Shown piece by piece: positions 23,822-30,100 of a DNA stretch of 64,000 bases. Position numbers and translations under genes: made by a program. Position 1 is the stretch's first letter; every line of letters starts with the position of its first letter. The stretch is taken from NCBI RefSeq assembly GCF_003945385.1, contig NZ_AP018920.1, positions 310,001 through 374,000 of the forward strand. The letters are read 5' to 3'. This DNA is from Pseudonocardia autotrophica (GTDB lineage: Bacteria; Actinomycetota; Actinomycetes; Mycobacteriales; Pseudonocardiaceae). The notes under the pieces are model-generated. The model did not search any database and was not told where the DNA came from. It saw nothing but the letters and a program-made list of their open reading frames with translations.

Positions 23822-24103
23822 ATGACGACGGAACCCGATGACGGGAGCCACCGCAACCCCCGGATGGCCGAGCTGTTCGGCGCGCCGCCGGGCTCCCCGG
23901 ACCCCGGTGCGAGCCCGACCGTCTTCGCCTTCCCCGCGGTGGTCGAGTTCATGAAGGTGGCGGGCCAGCCGGTGGCCGGCCCGTGGCCCCCGCACCAGCA
24001 CCCACGACCCGATCCGGAGGACGATGCCGGGCCGGTGGCGATCCCCGAACCGCCGGATCCCGGACTCGACCGACCCACCCGGCGCGCCGGGCACGAGGAG
24101 TAG
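23822..24103 (+). CDS. small hypothetical protein at head of cox locus 2
   Basis: 93-aa ORF starting MTTEPDDGSHRNPRMAELFG, Pro-rich, with one more structured stretch TVFAFPAVVEFMKVAGQPVAG. It lies 5 bases upstream of coxM of locus 2, and its last codons (CACGAGGAG) supply the ribosome binding site for coxM. No family is recognised. Possible roles are a leader or a small CODH accessory factor; neither can be told from sequence. Confidence 0.5.
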   Translation: MTTEPDDGSHRNPRMAELFGAPPGSPDPGASPTVFAFPAVVEFMKVAGQPVAGPWPPHQHPRPDPEDDAGPVAIPEPPDPGLDRPTRRAGHEE

Positions 24104-24108
24104 ACGCC

Positions 24109-24978
24109 GTGTACCCACCACGCTTCCGTTACGAGGCACCCCGGACGCTGGACGAGGCGCTCGCGCTGCTCGCCGACGACGACGCGAAGGTCCTCGCCGG
24201 CGGGCAGAGCCTGATCCCGCTGATCAAGCTCCGGTTCGCCCAGCCGGCGCTGCTCGTCGACATCAACGGCCTGCCAGGGCTGGGGCACCACCGGGAGACC
24301 GCGGACGGCGCGCTGGAGATCGGCGCGCTGTGCCGGCACGTCGACCTGGAGCGCTCCGAGCTGCTGCCCGGCCGGTATCCCACGATGGCCGCCTGCGCGC
24401 CGCTGGTCGCCGATCCCATCGTGCGCAGCCGCGGCACCCTGGTCGGGTCGCTGTGTCACGCCGACCCGCAGGGCGACTGGGCCGCGGCGATGATCGCCCT
24501 CGACGGGGAGGTCGTCGCCCGCAGCACCCGCGGCGAGCGCCGGATCCCGGTCGGGGAGTTCGCGACCGGACCGTTCCAGAACGCACTCGAGCACGACGAG
24601 ATCGCCGTCGCCGCCCGGGTGCCCGCGGCCCGCGACACCCGGTACGGGGCGTTCCTGAAGCTGGAGCGCCGGGTCGGTGACTTCGCCACCGCGGGCCTCG
24701 CGGTCGCGCTGGAGATCGCCGACGACGGCCGGGTCACCCGGGCCGGGCTCGCGCTCACCGGGGTCGGCGCGACCACCCTGACCGCGACCGACGCCGCCGC
24801 GGCGCTGATCGGTACCCGGCTGGAGCCCGAGGCGGTGGAGCGGGCCGCCGAGCTCGCCGCGGGCATCGCCCGTCCGCGCAGCGACCACCGGGGCAGCGCC
24901 GGGTACAAGCGCCACGTCGTCGCGACCTTCACCCGGCGTGCGCTGGCCGGGTTCGCGCCGGCCGGGATGGCCGCCTGA
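24109..24978 (+). CDS. coxM: CO dehydrogenase medium (FAD) subunit, locus 2
   Basis: 289-aa FAD subunit, paralogous to the locus 1 protein. It starts with GTG (VYPPRFRYEAP), preceded by GAGGAG. VLAGGQSLIPLIKLRFAQP and DPIVRSRGTLVGSLCHADPQGD are the FAD-binding motifs. YKRHVVATFTRRAL near the C-terminus matches the family. The second motif reads GTLVGS instead of the more usual GTxGGS, a small variation at the flavin loop. The stop overlaps coxS by one base (TGATG). Confidence 0.92.
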   Translation: MYPPRFRYEAPRTLDEALALLADDDAKVLAGGQSLIPLIKLRFAQPALLVDINGLPGLGHHRETADGALEIGALCRHVDLERSELLPGRYPTMAACAPLVADPIVRSRGTLVGSLCHADPQGDWAAAMIALDGEVVARSTRGERRIPVGEFATGPFQNALEHDEIAVAARVPAARDTRYGAFLKLERRVGDFATAGLAVALEIADDGRVTRAGLALTGVGATTLTATDAAAALIGTRLEPEAVERAAELAAGIARPRSDHRGSAGYKRHVVATFTRRALAGFAPAGMAA

Positions 24979-25502
24979 TGAGCATCCAGAACACCCGAAC
25001 CACCAAGGAGGACGGCGTGGAACAGCGCCGGATCACGCTGTCGGTCAACGGTGAACCGCATTCGGCCGAGATCGAGCCGCGATTGCTGCTGGCGCACCTG
25101 CTGCGCCAGGGACTCGGTCTGACCGGAACCCACATCGGTTGCGACACCACCAACTGCGGGGCGTGCACCGTGCTCTACGACGGCGAGCCGGTCAAGTCCT
25201 GCACGATGCTGGCCGTCCAGGCCGACGGGCACGAGGTGACCACCGTCGAGGGGCTGGGCACGCCCAGCGAGCTCGACCCGATCCAGGAGGGGTTCCGGGA
25301 GGAGCACGGCCTGCAGTGCGGGTTCTGCACGCCGGGCATGATGCTCGCCGCCACGGAGCTGCTGCGCCGCAATCCGGATCCGTCCGAGGAGGACGTCCGG
25401 TGGGCGTTGTCGGGCAACCTCTGCCGCTGCACCGGTTACCAGAACATCGTCAAGGCCGTGCTCTGGGCGGCCGAGAAGCAGCGCGCCGGCGCGGCCGGCT
25501 GA
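24978..25502 (+). CDS. coxS: CO dehydrogenase small (iron-sulfur) subunit, locus 2
   Basis: 174-aa protein with the two [2Fe-2S] motifs GCDTTNCGACTV and CGFCTPGMM plus CRCTGYQNIV. The N-terminus MSIQNTRTTKEDGVEQRR extends about 12 residues beyond the core; an internal GTG at 25017 preceded by AAGGAGG (VEQRRITLSVNGE) is an alternative start with a better ribosome binding site. It lacks the repeat tail of its locus 1 paralogue and sits between coxM and coxL. Confidence 0.93.
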   Translation: MSIQNTRTTKEDGVEQRRITLSVNGEPHSAEIEPRLLLAHLLRQGLGLTGTHIGCDTTNCGACTVLYDGEPVKSCTMLAVQADGHEVTTVEGLGTPSELDPIQEGFREEHGLQCGFCTPGMMLAATELLRRNPDPSEEDVRWALSGNLCRCTGYQNIVKAVLWAAEKQRAGAAG

Positions 25503-25515
25503 GGGGACGACGACC

Positions 25516-27900
25516 ATGACCGACACACTGGACGAGGTCAGGATCGGCGGTCTCGGGGCGAGCCGCAGACGGGCCGAGGACGCCCGGTTCATCCGCGGCC
25601 GCGGCACCTACGTCGACGACGTGGTGCTGCCCGGCATGCTGCACATGGAGATCCTGCGCAGCCCGCTGGCGCACGCCCGGATCACCAGCATCGACACCTC
25701 CGCCGCGTGGGCGATCCCGGGTGTGCGGCTGGTGCTGACCGGGGAGATGGCGGCCCAGCGCAACCTGGCCTGGATGCCGACGCTGTCCTACGACACCCAG
25801 GCGGTCCTGGCCACCGACAAGGTGCGCTTCCAGGGCCAGGAGGTGGCCTGCGTGGTCGCCGACGATCCCTACATCGCGCGGGACGCGGTGGAGGCGATCG
25901 TCGTCGAGTACGAGGCGCTGCCGCCGGTGGTCAACCCGAAGCAGGCGATGGAACCCGGCGCCCCGGTGATCCGGGACGACAAGGAGGGCCAGACCGACAA
26001 TCTGACCTACCGGTGGGACGTCGGCGACGCCGCGGCGACCGAGCGTGCCTTCGCCGAGGCGGACACGGTGTCGACGCTGTCGCTGCACTATCCGCGCAGC
26101 CACCCGTCCCCGCTGGAGCCGTGCGGTTCGATCGCCGACTTCGACGTGGCGACCGGCAAGCTCACGATCTACATGACCTCGCAGGCCCCGCACATCATCC
26201 GCTCCGCGGTGGCGCTGGTCGCGGAGCTGCCCGAGCACATGATCCGGGTGATCTCGCCGGACCTGGGCGGCGGGTTCGGCAACAAGGTCCCGGTCTATCC
26301 GGGGTACGTGTGCTCGATCCTCTGTTCGATCCTCACCGGGAAACCGGTCAAGTGGGTCGAGGACCGGTCGAGCAACCTCAGCTCCACCGGGTTCGGCCGC
26401 GACATGTACCTCGACGGCGAGCTCGCGCTGCGCAGCGACGGGAGGATCCTCGGCGTCCGGATGCACGTGACCACCGACCAGGGCGCGTTCTTCGCCGACG
26501 CCCAGCCCAGCAAGTTCAAGGTGGGCCTGCTGCACTCGGCGTTCGCCTGCTACGACGTCCCGGTCGGGCACATCAGCGCGCACGGGGCCTACACGAACAA
26601 GGCACCCGGTGGCGTCGCCTACCGGTGCTCGTTCCGGGTCACCGAGGCGATGTACTTCCAGGAGCGGATGGTCCAGGCCGCGGCCGACGACCTGGGCATG
26701 GACCAGGCCGAGTTCCGCCGGATCAACCTGCTGCACGACGACGCGTTCCCGGCCAGGACGCCGTTCGGGTTCCTGGTCGACTCCGGGCAGTACGGCAAGT
26801 GCCTGCAGCTGGGCCTGGATGCGATCGGCTACCAGGACTTCGTCGCCGAACAGGCCGCGGCCCGCGCGCGCGGGAGGCTGCTCGGGATCGGCATCTCGAC
26901 CATGACCGAGCCGCTCGGGGCCGGCAACAGCCGCGAGTACGACATCCTCGGCATCAAGATGTTCGACTCCGCCGAGCTGCGGGTGCACCCGACCGGCAAG
27001 GCGATGCTCCGCACCGGTGCCCGCAGCCAGGGCCAGGGGCACGAGACGACGTGGGCGCAGATCGTCGCGCACGAGCTGGGGCTGCCCGCCGACGACGTGG
27101 TCGTCGAGGAGGGTGACACCGACACCGCGCCGTACGGGATGGGCACCTACGCGTCGCGCTCCACCCCGGTGGCCGGGGCCGCGGTGTCGATGGTGTCGCG
27201 CAAGATCCGGGCGAAGGCGCGCAAGCTCGCCGCACACCTGCTGGAGGTGTCCGAGGAGGACGTCGAGTGGGAGCTCGGCCGGTTCCACGTGCGCGGCGCG
27301 CCGGAGCGCGGGGTGACCATCCAGGAGTGCGCGGCCGCGGCGTACACGAACATGCCGGACGGCATGGAGCCCGGCCTGGAGGGCAACGCCTACTACGACC
27401 CGCCGAACCTGACCTGGCCGTTCGCCTGCTACATCGCCATCGTCGAGGTCGACCCGGAGACCGGGGTGTGGGACGTGCTGCGGTTCGTCGCGGTCGACGA
27501 CTGCGGCGTCCGGATCAACCCGATGATCGTCGAGGGACAGATCATGGGCGGGCTGACCGAGGCCTACGCGATGGCCAGCATGCAGTTCCAGACCTACGAC
27601 GCCGAGGGCAACATCGTCGGCTCGAACTTCATGGACTACCTGCTGCCCACCGCCTGGGAGACACCCGGCTTCGAGCTGCACGAGGTCGTCACCCCGTGCC
27701 CGCACCACCCGATCGGTGCCAAGGGCATCGGGGAGTGCGCGACGGTGGGCGGCCCGGCCGCGTTCGTCAACGCCGTGCACGACGCGATCCGGCACACCGG
27801 GGTCCGCAACGTCGACATGCCGCTGCTGCCCGACCGGGTCTGGGAGGCGCTGCGTACCGGGCACGACTACTCCGGTGCACCGCCGGTGAAGGGGGACTGA
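25516..27900 (+). CDS. coxL: form I carbon monoxide dehydrogenase large subunit, locus 2
   Basis: 794-aa Mo-Cu catalytic subunit. The form I loop is AYRCSFR (coding 26617-26637, Cys at residue 371), the most typical form I sequence. GGGFGNKVPVYPG, SQGQGHETTWAQIVAHELG and HHPIGAKGIGECATVG are intact. The ATG at 25516 follows GAGGGGACGACG. The paralogue in locus 1 shares all catalytic motifs but differs along much of its length, so the two are diverged copies, not a recent duplication. coxG follows at once. Confidence 0.95.
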   Translation: MTDTLDEVRIGGLGASRRRAEDARFIRGRGTYVDDVVLPGMLHMEILRSPLAHARITSIDTSAAWAIPGVRLVLTGEMAAQRNLAWMPTLSYDTQAVLATDKVRFQGQEVACVVADDPYIARDAVEAIVVEYEALPPVVNPKQAMEPGAPVIRDDKEGQTDNLTYRWDVGDAAATERAFAEADTVSTLSLHYPRSHPSPLEPCGSIADFDVATGKLTIYMTSQAPHIIRSAVALVAELPEHMIRVISPDLGGGFGNKVPVYPGYVCSILCSILTGKPVKWVEDRSSNLSSTGFGRDMYLDGELALRSDGRILGVRMHVTTDQGAFFADAQPSKFKVGLLHSAFACYDVPVGHISAHGAYTNKAPGGVAYRCSFRVTEAMYFQERMVQAAADDLGMDQAEFRRINLLHDDAFPARTPFGFLVDSGQYGKCLQLGLDAIGYQDFVAEQAAARARGRLLGIGISTMTEPLGAGNSREYDILGIKMFDSAELRVHPTGKAMLRTGARSQGQGHETTWAQIVAHELGLPADDVVVEEGDTDTAPYGMGTYASRSTPVAGAAVSMVSRKIRAKARKLAAHLLEVSEEDVEWELGRFHVRGAPERGVTIQECAAAAYTNMPDGMEPGLEGNAYYDPPNLTWPFACYIAIVEVDPETGVWDVLRFVAVDDCGVRINPMIVEGQIMGGLTEAYAMASMQFQTYDAEGNIVGSNFMDYLLPTAWETPGFELHEVVTPCPHHPIGAKGIGECATVGGPAAFVNAVHDAIRHTGVRNVDMPLLPDRVWEALRTGHDYSGAPPVKGD

Positions 27901-27903
27901 GCC

Positions 27904-28488
27904 GTGCTGATCGAGAACAGCTTCACCGTGGCCGCCCCGGCCGACCGGGTCTGGGCCGAACTGCAGGACCTGCCGGGCCTCGTCCCCTGCCTGCCGGGGG
28001 CCGAGCTCACCCGGGACTTCGGCGACGACCGCTACGAGGGCAAGGTGGTGACCCGGCTCGGGCCGGTCGCACTGCGTTTCACCGGCGTCGCCGAGCTCGT
28101 CGAGGCCGACGAGGCGGGGCGGCGCCTGGTGCTGCACGCCTCGGGCTCCGAGGACAAGGGCAAGGGCACCGCCGACATGACGATGACCATGCGGCTGTCC
28201 ACCGGGACCGGTGGGCGGACCGAGGTCTCGGTCGCCCAGGACCTGCAGGTCTCCGGTGCCGCGGCCCAGTTCGGCCGCGGCATGATCGCCGACGTCTCCG
28301 GGGTGCTGATGCGCAGCTTCGCCGACTGCGTCGAGGCGAAGATCAACAGCGGCGGCGGGGGGACGGCCACCGCCGTCCGGGCGAAACCCGCGAGCGGTCT
28401 GAGCATCGGCGTCGCGGCCGCCGTGATGGCGCTCAAGCGGGTGCTGCGCCGCTTCTTCGGGCCGAGCACCCGACCCGGACATTCCTAG
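27904..28488 (+). CDS. coxG: CoxG, membrane-recruiting SRPBCC protein
   Basis: 194-aa protein. Residues 1-150 are an SRPBCC/START-like fold (NSFTVAAPADRVWAEL, LPGLVPCLPGAELT, YEGKVVTRLGPVALRFTG), the CoxG family. A Gly/Ala linker leads to a C-terminal amphipathic or membrane-seeking helix (SIGVAAAVMALKRVLRRFFG). CoxG is known to bring CO dehydrogenase to the membrane, and in mycobacteria it has been linked to quinone handling. It starts with GTG three bases after the coxL stop. Only locus 2 has a coxG, so it may serve both enzymes. Confidence 0.9.
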   Translation: MLIENSFTVAAPADRVWAELQDLPGLVPCLPGAELTRDFGDDRYEGKVVTRLGPVALRFTGVAELVEADEAGRRLVLHASGSEDKGKGTADMTMTMRLSTGTGGRTEVSVAQDLQVSGAAAQFGRGMIADVSGVLMRSFADCVEAKINSGGGGTATAVRAKPASGLSIGVAAAVMALKRVLRRFFGPSTRPGHS

Positions 28489-28498
28489 GAGGACGACG

Positions 28499-28780
28499 AT
28501 GACTCTCTGGTGGATCGGGAACGCGATCCTGCTGCTGGTCGTGTTCCCGGTGGTCGTGGCGCTGCTCAACCGCGTGCTCGCCGCGGTCGAGCGGATCCGC
28601 TGGGCCGCCGACGACATCCTGGCCGATGGTGTGCGGCTCGCCGGGCGGCTCGAACCCGTCCCGGAGCTGCTCGCCACCACCGACGCGACGGTGGCGCAGG
28701 TGGCGACCGGCGCCACCCGCTACGCCGGCAGCGTCGCGACGCTGCTGCCGAGCGCCCCCGAACGAGAAGGGACCCCCTGA
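28499..28780 (+). CDS. small single-pass membrane protein 1 of cox locus 2
   Basis: 93-aa protein. One N-terminal membrane helix (WWIGNAILLLVVFPVVVALLNRVL) is followed by a helical, coiled-coil-like cytoplasmic part (VERIRWAADDILADGVRLAGRL...TTDATVAQV). The start follows TAGGAGG. It is the first of five such genes in a row; the stop overlaps the next ATG by one base. The pattern of short heptad-like segments recalls DUF948-type proteins. Function unknown. Confidence 0.75.
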   Translation: MTLWWIGNAILLLVVFPVVVALLNRVLAAVERIRWAADDILADGVRLAGRLEPVPELLATTDATVAQVATGATRYAGSVATLLPSAPEREGTP

Positions 28781-29007
28781 TGCCCGCTGCCGCCTGGGCG
28801 ACACTCATCATCGCGGCGCTGATCATCGCCGTCACCGGGATCGGCCTGCTCCGGGTCATCCTGCACCTGCGTCACGTCAGCCGGACGCTTGCCGACCTGA
28901 CCGGGGGAGTCCGTGCGATCGCCGTGTCCACCGCCACCGTTCCCGCGGTGGTCGGATCGGTGAACGCCGAGCTCAAGCCGGTCCGCGACTTCTGCGAGTC
29001 GGTATGA
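28780..29007 (+). CDS. small single-pass membrane protein 2 of cox locus 2
   Basis: 75-aa protein with N-terminal helix WATLIIAALIIAVTGIGLLRVI, then RHVSRTLADLTGGVRAIAVST and a tail ending VRDFCESV with a single cysteine. ATG overlaps the previous stop (TGATG), and its own stop overlaps the next ATG (ATGA). No family assigned. Confidence 0.72.
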   Translation: MPAAAWATLIIAALIIAVTGIGLLRVILHLRHVSRTLADLTGGVRAIAVSTATVPAVVGSVNAELKPVRDFCESV

Positions 29008-29243
29008 CCGGCTGGTACGTCGGGTTCGCCATCGGGATCGCGGTGGTCCTGGTGGTGGTCGCACTGGTCGTCCCGATCCTGGTGCTCGCGCACCGGATCG
29101 GGAAGCAGGCACCGGCGATCGACGCCGCACTGCAGGACGCCGAACGGAACACCCGGCCGCTGGCCGACCTGGCCACGACCGTCGAGCACGCCGACGTGAT
29201 CACCGCAGGGCTGCGGCGTGGTCGCGGGCGACTGGGAGGCTGA
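29004..29243 (+). CDS. small single-pass membrane protein 3 of cox locus 2
   Basis: 79-aa protein with a strong N-terminal helix (VGFAIGIAVVLVVVALVVPILVL) then an amphipathic helix (IGKQAPAIDAALQDAERNTRPLADLATTVEH). ATG overlaps the previous gene by four bases. Same layout as its neighbours; function unknown. Confidence 0.72.
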   Translation: MTGWYVGFAIGIAVVLVVVALVVPILVLAHRIGKQAPAIDAALQDAERNTRPLADLATTVEHADVITAGLRRGRGRLGG

Positions 29244-29245
29244 GG

Positions 29246-29563
29246 ATGACCGGAGCGGCTGGAATGTCGTCGGAGGAGATCACCGCGTGGTGGATCGCGG
29301 TCATCGCCGGATTCGTGGTGGTGCTCGCGGTCGCGGCGCTGCTCAGCCTGCTGGTGTGGTTCGTGAAGATCATCGAGCGACGGGTCGCCGGGATCCGGGA
29401 CACCCTGCAGGCGATCACCGGGAACACGGCGTCGACGACGCTGATCCCGCAGACCGGTGACGCGGTCGACCGGGTGCTGGCCGAGGGCCTGGCACACCAC
29501 CTGTTCCTGGGCCGCGTCCCGCTGGACCGGTCCGCCGCGGTGACGAACGGAGGTGGTCGGTGA
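29246..29563 (+). CDS. small single-pass membrane protein 4 of cox locus 2
   Basis: 105-aa protein: short hydrophilic N-terminus, helix WWIAVIAGFVVVLAVAALLSLLVW, then a cytoplasmic helical stretch (FVKIIERRVAGIRDTLQAI) and a conserved-looking end (DAVDRVLAEGLAHHLFLGRVP) with a His pair. The start follows GAGG. Function unknown. Confidence 0.72.
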   Translation: MTGAAGMSSEEITAWWIAVIAGFVVVLAVAALLSLLVWFVKIIERRVAGIRDTLQAITGNTASTTLIPQTGDAVDRVLAEGLAHHLFLGRVPLDRSAAVTNGGGR

Positions 29564-29916
29564 TGACCCTGCTCATCGTGCTGTCGGTGCTCGCGGTCGT
29601 CGCGCTGATCGCGGGACTCGCCTTCTACCTGGCCTGGGTCGGCACCCTGCTGGGCAGGGTGGCGACCATCCTGGAGGAGTGCTCGGAGTCGGTCCGCCGG
29701 ATCGACGCCGACGCCGAGCGGATCGGCCCCGGGCTCGGGCACGTCAACCGCTCGGCCGGGACGGTCGCCGGGGCGCTGCCGCTGCTCTACGGGTTCGCCG
29801 AGGAGATCGTGCGCGGCGCGAGCCCGGTCCCGGAGCGCCCGGCGGTCGCCGTGCCCGCGTCCGGCCGGCGCCGCTCCCGGCTCACCGCCGCCGTCGGGTA
29901 CCGCCCGGCCGGGTGA
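29560..29916 (+). CDS. small single-pass membrane protein 5 of cox locus 2
   Basis: 118-aa protein with helix LLIVLSVLAVVALIAGLAFYLAW and a long cytoplasmic helix (LLGRVATILEECSESVRRIDADAERI) ending in a basic, Pro-rich tail. GTG (29560) and ATG (29563) are both usable behind GGAGG. It is the last gene of cox locus 2, and a strong stem-loop lies in the gap to the convergent operon. All five small proteins place their helical part after the membrane segment, so they could form a membrane scaffold for CODH/CoxG; this is inference. Confidence 0.74.
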   Translation: MMTLLIVLSVLAVVALIAGLAFYLAWVGTLLGRVATILEECSESVRRIDADAERIGPGLGHVNRSAGTVAGALPLLYGFAEEIVRGASPVPERPAVAVPASGRRRSRLTAAVGYRPAG

Positions 29917-30061: not shown

Positions 30062-30100
30062 TCGCGGGTTTCCGCTCACCTGGTGAGCGGAAACCCGCGA
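30062..30100. terminator. 17-bp perfect stem-loop between convergent cox operons
   Basis: Arms 30062-30078 and 30084-30100 with loop CCTGG; perfect pairing. It lies 146 bases after the last small membrane protein gene and 6 bases past the stop of the convergent operon, so it could end both transcripts. It shares the core CCGCTCA-NNTGG-TGAGCGG with 2374-2408. Confidence 0.75.

Follow-up and report, generated by a model that had tools for sequence, protein, structure and literature searches.

Five small membrane-protein genes linked to both a clade of form I Mo-CODHs and group 1l/1m-like [NiFe]-hydrogenases

In a 64,000-nt stretch of the Pseudonocardia autotrophica genome (hereafter, the window), five small genes, designated S1 to S5, follow coxG in a form I Mo-CODH operon. 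The same five families occur in [NiFe]-hydrogenase clusters, and it is this link of the five-gene set between CODH and hydrogenase that is new with respect to the open-licence literature searched; the hydrogenase-side set itself has already been named HylTM. Judging from sequence, the five genes are reasonably likely to encode the paralogous subunits, five in number, of one membrane adaptor, by which soluble trace-gas enzymes of unrelated kinds would be docked close to the quinone pool. Behind the soil uptake of atmospheric CO and H2 stands the open question of how electrons from soluble CODHs and high-affinity hydrogenases enter the membrane, and five genes shared by two enzymes of unrelated kind point to a single solution. 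The CODH link also gives the unexplained HylTM proteins a context.

The cox operon and the five small genes

The operon is encoded on the forward strand and comprises coxM (23983-24978, +; the longest ORF, the true start of which may be later), coxS (24978-25502, +), coxL (25516-27900, +), and coxG (27904-28488, +), with coxM and coxS in the order found in homologous loci. CoxL (794 aa) belongs to a form I clade termed clade A here, carries the motif AYRCSFR, and scored above the TIGR02416 cut-off; its best match in the PDB was 8uem, the M. smegmatis CODH. CoxG (194 aa) matched PF06240 (4e-13, 49.7 bits; cut-off 22.2) and showed no detectable likeness to S1-S5.

S1 (28499-28780, +; 93 aa) starts 10 nt after the coxG stop codon and combines an N-terminal span with a tail of the pattern DDIL...RYAGSVA..LL. 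It overlaps by 1 nt with S2 (28780-29007, +; 75 aa), which consists of a span and a tail (SVN..L.PVR) and in turn overlaps by 4 nt with S3 (29004-29243, +; 79 aa), a span plus a tail that ends in GL.RGR.RLGG in the CODH-linked set. After a gap of 2 nt follows S4 (29246-29563, +; 105 aa), likewise a span and a tail, for which an alternative start at the in-frame ATG 29264 (giving 99 aa) is a better fit to many homologues. S5 (29560-29916, +; 118 aa) overlaps S4 by 4 nt, begins with GTG (the other start being ATG 29563), and continues from its span into a tail with an amphipathic part (GALPLLYGFAE); its basic C-terminal block, ASGRRRSR, was not found in the three hydrogenase-linked S5 rows compared.

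The genes are real and conserved, and their layout is operon-like. Each product has one span (KD19 maximum 2.6-3.4, start at residue 4-19) and GC3 of the genes was 0.87-0.98; ORFs, KD19, and GC3 confirmed what the preliminary description had seen, namely five real genes, overlapping or near-touching, behind coxG, each with a single N-terminal span and a helical tail. The lowest pairwise dN/dS per gene was 0.12-0.22. The medians were 0.31-0.63, but high GC3 and saturation of dS have probably raised them. On inspection, S1-S5 had no Lys or Arg ahead of the span and 1-4 within 15 residues past it, a distribution from which the tails are predicted to be cytoplasmic by the positive-inside rule. CODH presumably resides in the cytoplasm as well. 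In the CODH-linked set, the family-averaged tails of S1, S2, S3, and S5 gave a helical periodicity peak at 102-106 degrees (shuffle p from <0.0005 to 0.0045), and the S4 tail gave no clear amphipathic periodicity (peak 92 degrees, shuffle p 0.23); in the hydrogenase set, all five tail families peaked at 104-106 degrees.

About 150 nt past S5 and ahead of a convergent ORF, a 19-bp inverted repeat without mismatches, its arms 1 nt apart (30062-30100), may mark where the transcription unit from coxM to S5 terminates. A second form I CODH (19822 to approximately 23.8 kb, -), with coxM, coxS, and a coxL bearing AYACSFR, is divergent from the first, and its coxL is 57% identical to the first coxL. 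Such a head-to-head CODH pair recurred in most Pseudonocardia loci compared, and no S gene matched at Pseudonocardia relatives of the second CODH (L047-L055). The window genome contained sixteen PF02738 matches (molybdenum-hydroxylase large-subunit type).

Relationships among S1-S5 and conserved residues

No Pfam or NCBIfam model claimed the S1-S5 of the window, in agreement with their earlier placement outside known families. Membership in DUF948 (PF06103), a family with one span plus a coiled-coil tail, was considered and rejected: S3 and S4 reached 14.7 and 12.7 bits against a gathering cut-off of 37.2, and S1, S2, and S5 had no DUF948 match in the Pfam scan. Among relatives, one of 48 S4 sequences matched at E 0.007 and none of 11 S3 sequences at E<=0.01, with none above the cut-off; some UniRef entries of S1 relatives bear the DUF948 name, although the scanned members miss the Pfam cut-off. 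Structure-database relatives of S1 and S5 were only designed, viral, and chemoreceptor coiled coils and the like, and the best E-values against solved structures (4.5e-5 for S5 and 0.002 for S1) were taken as background.

Rather than five unrelated families, S1-S5 are by profile paralogues in two groups, S1/S3/S4 and S2/S5. The near pairs were S3-S4, S1-S4, and S2-S5, in a matrix in which the CODH set included loci of unclear context. This pattern suggests that an ancestral gene pair was duplicated to give S1-S2 and S4-S5, and that S3 may be a further copy of S4.

None of the five families had a column with Cys in at least 70% of the CODH-linked members, and S2 had one His column in the CODH set. 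In S4, W15 and N60-T61 were identical in 48 of 48 relatives from both CODH and hydrogenase settings. H84 was kept in 44 of these 48 (34/34 of clade A and 10/12 hydrogenase-linked), H85 in 34/34 of clade A and 0/12 hydrogenase-linked sequences, and neither of the two His residues in the two sequences from a second CODH lineage (described below). A single kept His in S4 would be too little for a haem or FeS site; it could touch quinone.

Linkage to clade A form I CODHs

Among 62 genomes of the genus Pseudonocardia, coxL of the window clade (>=82% identity) occurred in 18 genomes at 19 places, and S5 (E<=2e-35) in 17 genomes at 18 places. S5 was found on the same contig as coxL at 18 of the 19 clade A places; at the exception (G035), the contig breaks off where S2 begins, and coxG is distributed over two reading frames. 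S1-S5 stood in one order in all 17 loci from strong S5 matches (L009-L025; three weak-match loci, L026-L028, were left out of this count), so that the layout is more than chance, and the second place in genome G018 (L116) also carried all five. Wherever coxG and S1 were both complete (16 of 16 loci, L030-L045), S1 was closer to its window copy than CoxG was (65-93% vs. 52-82% identity over aligned segments). The nine genus genomes with only the other form I clade (59-60%) had no S5 at E<=2e-35 and no S gene at E<=1e-3 within 1.5 kb on either side. The S5 of one MAG (G038; L018, 302-967, -) has a C-terminal extension of approximately 100 residues.

Across 394 genomes of the class, coxL of at least 78% identity was present in 17, the next form I coxL being at 61%. 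S1 (E<=1e-28) was present in 16, which were 15 of those 17 and G308, where S1 lies beside a coxL fragment at a contig end. In G404, an S1 fragment and S2-S5 open a second contig, followed by coxE and coxD, and in G121 coxL is located at a contig end. S1 (E<=0.001) was missing from 48 of the 49 class genomes in which every form I coxL was of the more distant kind, and in the one exception (G075) it lies within a hydrogenase cluster. Weaker S1 matches occurred in two genomes without form I coxL: that of G305 is part of a hydrogenase cluster, and that of G231 is on a contig of 3 kb. There were five further weak class matches (E 8e-4 to 0.007), in G107, G178, G240, G247, and G433; the surroundings of the first two were read and contained no S genes.

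The order coxG-S1-S2-S3-S4-S5 was found in 36 of 39 named loci, with the other three ending too early, and in 15 of 15 class loci of the clade A kind; the named loci were collected through S1 and are biased towards it. They belong to Pseudonocardia, Amycolatopsis, Actinophytocola, Umezawaea, Thermocrispum, Streptosporangiaceae, a Nocardiopsis MAG, and Acidimicrobiia MAGs. CoxG was encoded directly upstream of S1 in all 39 named loci and in the 15 class loci annotated, and maturation-type coxD/coxE adjoin in most CODH loci. S1-S5 are genetically linked to form I coxL. The tie to coxG and to one form I CODH clade is borne out by the 36 of 39 named loci and the 18 of 19 genus coxL places; in the class sample, it does not extend to the 48 other-form-I genomes lacking S1. 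All nine same-order genomes with form I coxL at 57-58% also lacked S1. Since the best solved relative of the window CoxL is 8uem and these nine genomes are without S1, CODH can presumably work without the module. In L096, L112, L132, L135, and other clade A loci, coxL and coxG are separated by approximately 0.9 kb, an interval that is absent from the window and would leave room for one more gene.

Counterparts in [NiFe]-hydrogenase clusters

A weak S5 match (E 1.5e-7) was located in a [NiFe]-hydrogenase locus, L059, that contained relatives of all five genes. The large subunit of L059, searched in 396 genomes of the phylum, gave 68 places, 20 of which were examined: 15 closer loci (54-83% identical) and five group 1h-like loci (<=42%), the group names (1l-, 1m-, and 1h-like) resting on layout and identity. 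At least one S gene was held by 13 of the 15 closer loci and none by L191 and L193; all five families were missing from all five group 1h-like loci (L195-L199).

The order hydS-S3-S4-S5-S1-S2 was present in six loci (L185, L187, L188, L223, L225, and L220), in five of which hydL came next after S2; L220 ends before hydL. The resulting 1l-like arrangement, hydS-S3-S4-S5-S1-S2-hydL, is the one printed for group 1l in the available text of PMC9561532. In 1m-like loci (L059, L060, L147, L180, L181, and L182), an S1-S2 pair was accompanied by S3-S4-S5 divergent from hydS, and S1-S2 adjoined DUF1059, HybD-like, and NifU-like genes in L059, L180, L182, and L217. Partial, rearranged, or doubled sets were found at 51-57% identity (L184, L186, L189, L190, L192, and L194) and also in L183 and L212. 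Genes for HypC-E and for HybD-, NifU-, and CooC-like proteins surround the hydrogenase loci, and BLAST with the window CoxG found no CoxG in the 22 hydrogenase loci searched. L184 (5260-7300, -) carries genes for a coxD-like AAA protein (54%) and a coxE-like VWA protein (38%) beside HydL, together with S3-S1-S4-S5.

In the 22 hydrogenase loci, HMMs built from 17 CODH-linked sequences per family (CODH-only HMMs) recognized 64 ORFs (E<0.05), and 59 of these scored at least 20 bits. That score was reached by none of 871 background ORFs, of which 31 had a strong span, and by none of 1180 shuffles that kept span position and composition; the best decoy scored 17.8. All five genes, with the expected family as the best match, were found in L059, L180, L181, and L182 (1m-like) and in L183, where S1 scored 54-67 and S4 51-63 bits. 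The 1l-like loci were more distant: in the three tested, CODH-only HMMs recognized three, four, and four of the five genes (E<0.05), and S5 went unrecognized in all three. HMMs with L059/L060 rows added found all five in six 1l-like loci. Comparison of CODH and hydrogenase family profiles gave probabilities of 99.1-99.8 and scores of 103-146 on the diagonal (hhalign probability: S1 99.8, S2 99.5, S3 99.5, S4 99.6, and S5 99.1) and scores of at most 64.5 off it. This matrix compared a strict CODH set with a mixed 1l/1m set, the members of which were sorted with mixed HMMs; the empty S2 row of the second CODH lineage was disregarded. The profiles establish one-to-one homology of S1-S5 with hydrogenase-cluster genes, and the S1 of the window is the counterpart of the fourth small gene past hydS in 1l-like loci.

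A CODH-specific dock, as originally conceived, does not fit orthologues of all five genes accompanying 1l-like and 1m-like hydrogenases without CoxG (22 loci). Homologues without cox genes had been named beforehand as counting against a role as a dock; they do exist, at hydrogenases, and they make a shared dock likelier.

A second CODH lineage and unusual contexts

S1 (E<=0.001) was detected in 31 of 296 genomes of the phylum sample. Six of the 31 had it beside clade A coxL (>=82%), four had a 68-75% coxL in the genome, two (G645 and G693) had it beside a 57% coxL, and 17 beside hydrogenase genes, which at L207, L208, L217, and L221 were accessory genes only; in the remaining two (G549 and G686), the contigs were too short to tell. 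In the loci with the 57% coxL (L203 and L204), the order was S3-S4-S5-S1-S2-coxM-coxS-coxL, that is, the hydrogenase order placed ahead of CODH genes.

From the five families joined (449 columns), a tree was calculated for 34 of 65 full sets. It comprised 22 of the 53 CODH sets and every one of the 12 remaining sets; L204, lacking a full set, is outside it. L203 grouped with the hydrogenase sets, and 100% support separated it from the 22 CODH sets (clade A and 68-75%), although its exact place was weak (64%) and its branch long. This topology is consistent with, but no proof of, the module having been joined to CODH a second time and independently.

In G608, an S1-S2 pair lies approximately 14 kb from the CODH genes, beside serA/ilvE/gltX. 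In G549 and G569, an S1-S2-DUF1059 group beside serA/ilvE/gltX at first looked like an orphan, an impression that inspection partly removed: in G569, coxD/coxE-like genes are located on the other side of S1-S2-DUF1059, and in G549 the contig ends at S1.

Comparison with known systems

Group 1l clusters encode HylTM1-5, five short predicted transmembrane proteins (PMC9561532, available in part). Like S1-S5, these are five short predicted single-span proteins encoded together, and all five match the S1-S5 families; numbered from hydS, HylTM1-5 would be S3, S4, S5, S1, and S2, an identity that rests on cluster layout. The clade A set differs from HylTM in its client enzyme, in having S1-S2 ahead of S3-S5, in the adjoining CoxG, and in the basic C-terminal block added to S5. 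HylTM genes lie between hydS and hydL, whereas S1-S5 of the window follow coxG, and no HydL match was found in the window genome at E<=1e-60. The group 1m clusters have been described with a DUF1059 gene and two small proteins of one span each, the passage on them mentioning no further small proteins (PMC9561532); the 1m-like loci here hold S3-S4-S5 too. Within the open-licence literature, as far as its text was accessible, the name HylTM occurs in one paper, no HylTM function is described, and there is no report of cox clusters carrying these genes.

The nearest functional parallel is HucM of the group 2a hydrogenase Huc, a helical tube between the soluble enzyme and the membrane through which menaquinone is probably admitted (PMC10017518). 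It is one 188-residue protein, present in four copies and membrane-peripheral, and its likeness to S1-S5 is one of analogy. For O. carboxidovorans, CoxG has been put forward as the factor that brings CODH to the membrane (PMC4240915), and a further source describes it as binding menaquinone (PMC13240472); it belongs to the SRPBCC superfamily and is unlike S1-S5, next to which it is encoded. The accessible text on M. smegmatis CODH describes it as primarily cytosolic, with weak membrane association not ruled out (PMC6794299).

Possible function of S1-S5

Homology and linkage to the two enzymes are shown by the sequences, whereas the topology of S1-S5, their hetero-oligomerization, docking, and quinone access are inferred. 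The proteins would assemble into a membrane-anchored hetero-oligomeric bundle of spans with a short helical stalk. The client would be clade A form I Mo-CODH in this genome, where the module would work with CoxG, and group 1l/1m-like [NiFe]-hydrogenases elsewhere. The module would probably act mechanically, by tethering the enzyme to the membrane and by screening or steering access to quinone; a mechanical role rather than that of an electron wire is indicated by the lack of a recognizable redox ligand set. CODH and hydrogenase have no common fold, metal, or maturation, and both are soluble and deliver electrons to the respiratory chain. A module common to both is therefore best explained by shared respiratory electron delivery. 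A membrane dock, as first proposed, is still the best reading of S1-S5, but not as one used exclusively by CODH. The module is not universally required, given the 48 of 49 other-form-I class genomes and the five 1h-like loci without it; nor is access of CODH via S1-S5 a general requirement, since CoxG has already been proposed for contact. A more specific version, in which a heteropentameric conduit that arose from a duplicated gene pair gives Mo-CODHs and [NiFe]-hydrogenases access to menaquinone and was joined to CODH at least twice, is offered tentatively and as less likely than not; if true, it would constitute a plug-in quinone port for trace-gas respiration.

The adjoining coxD/coxE genes of most CODH loci, together with the hypC-E and HybD-, NifU-, and CooC-like genes near hydrogenases, would also suit a membrane assembly platform that holds the apo-enzyme and maturation factors during cofactor insertion and stays outside the working enzyme. 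We consider such a platform unlikely, because Mo-Cu CODH and Ni-Fe hydrogenase share no maturation chemistry and because the five genes of 1l-like loci lie between structural genes, as subunit genes do. O. carboxidovorans, moreover, matures CODH by coxDEF, and no set like the five is named in the available text (PMC4240915). A lateral organizer or regulator that clusters the enzyme with terminal oxidases or senses membrane state, with no part in quinone transfer, would be compatible with the sub-threshold DUF948-like scores and the chemoreceptor-like coiled-coil background matches; Pfam detected no sensory domain, however, and the linkage is to enzyme structural genes, so that this explanation appears quite improbable.

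An electron wire, with the module binding haem or metal and passing electrons to quinone, could draw on the S2 His column and on S4, where H84 is kept throughout clade A and in most hydrogenase-linked sequences and H85 throughout clade A. H85 is nevertheless absent from the hydrogenase-linked sequences, both His residues are absent from the second lineage, CODH-linked members have no Cys column at the 70% level, and a lone His makes no haem or FeS site; we regard this role as very improbable. That S1-S5 are unrelated operon neighbours kept by chance is scarcely credible, given the same order from Pseudonocardia to Streptosporangiaceae and Acidimicrobiia and the recurrence with hydrogenases.

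With respect to the proposed docking adaptor, the HydL proteins of closer (1l/1m-like) loci mostly aligned with the L059 HydL from residue 1-3, and those of group 1h-like loci mostly from residue 46-60. The resulting N-terminal extension of approximately 55 residues goes with the S module and may be a segment used in docking. A DUF1059-like protein is encoded with S1-S2 in L059 (3355-3579), L205, and L210, and between S2 and S3 in L106 and L131; this companion is frequent in hydrogenase clusters, occurs in few CODH clusters, and is possibly a sixth component. Extra S-like genes were located near the sets of L200, L209, L201, L202, and L183, those of L201 encoding proteins of 187-231 aa with long tails.
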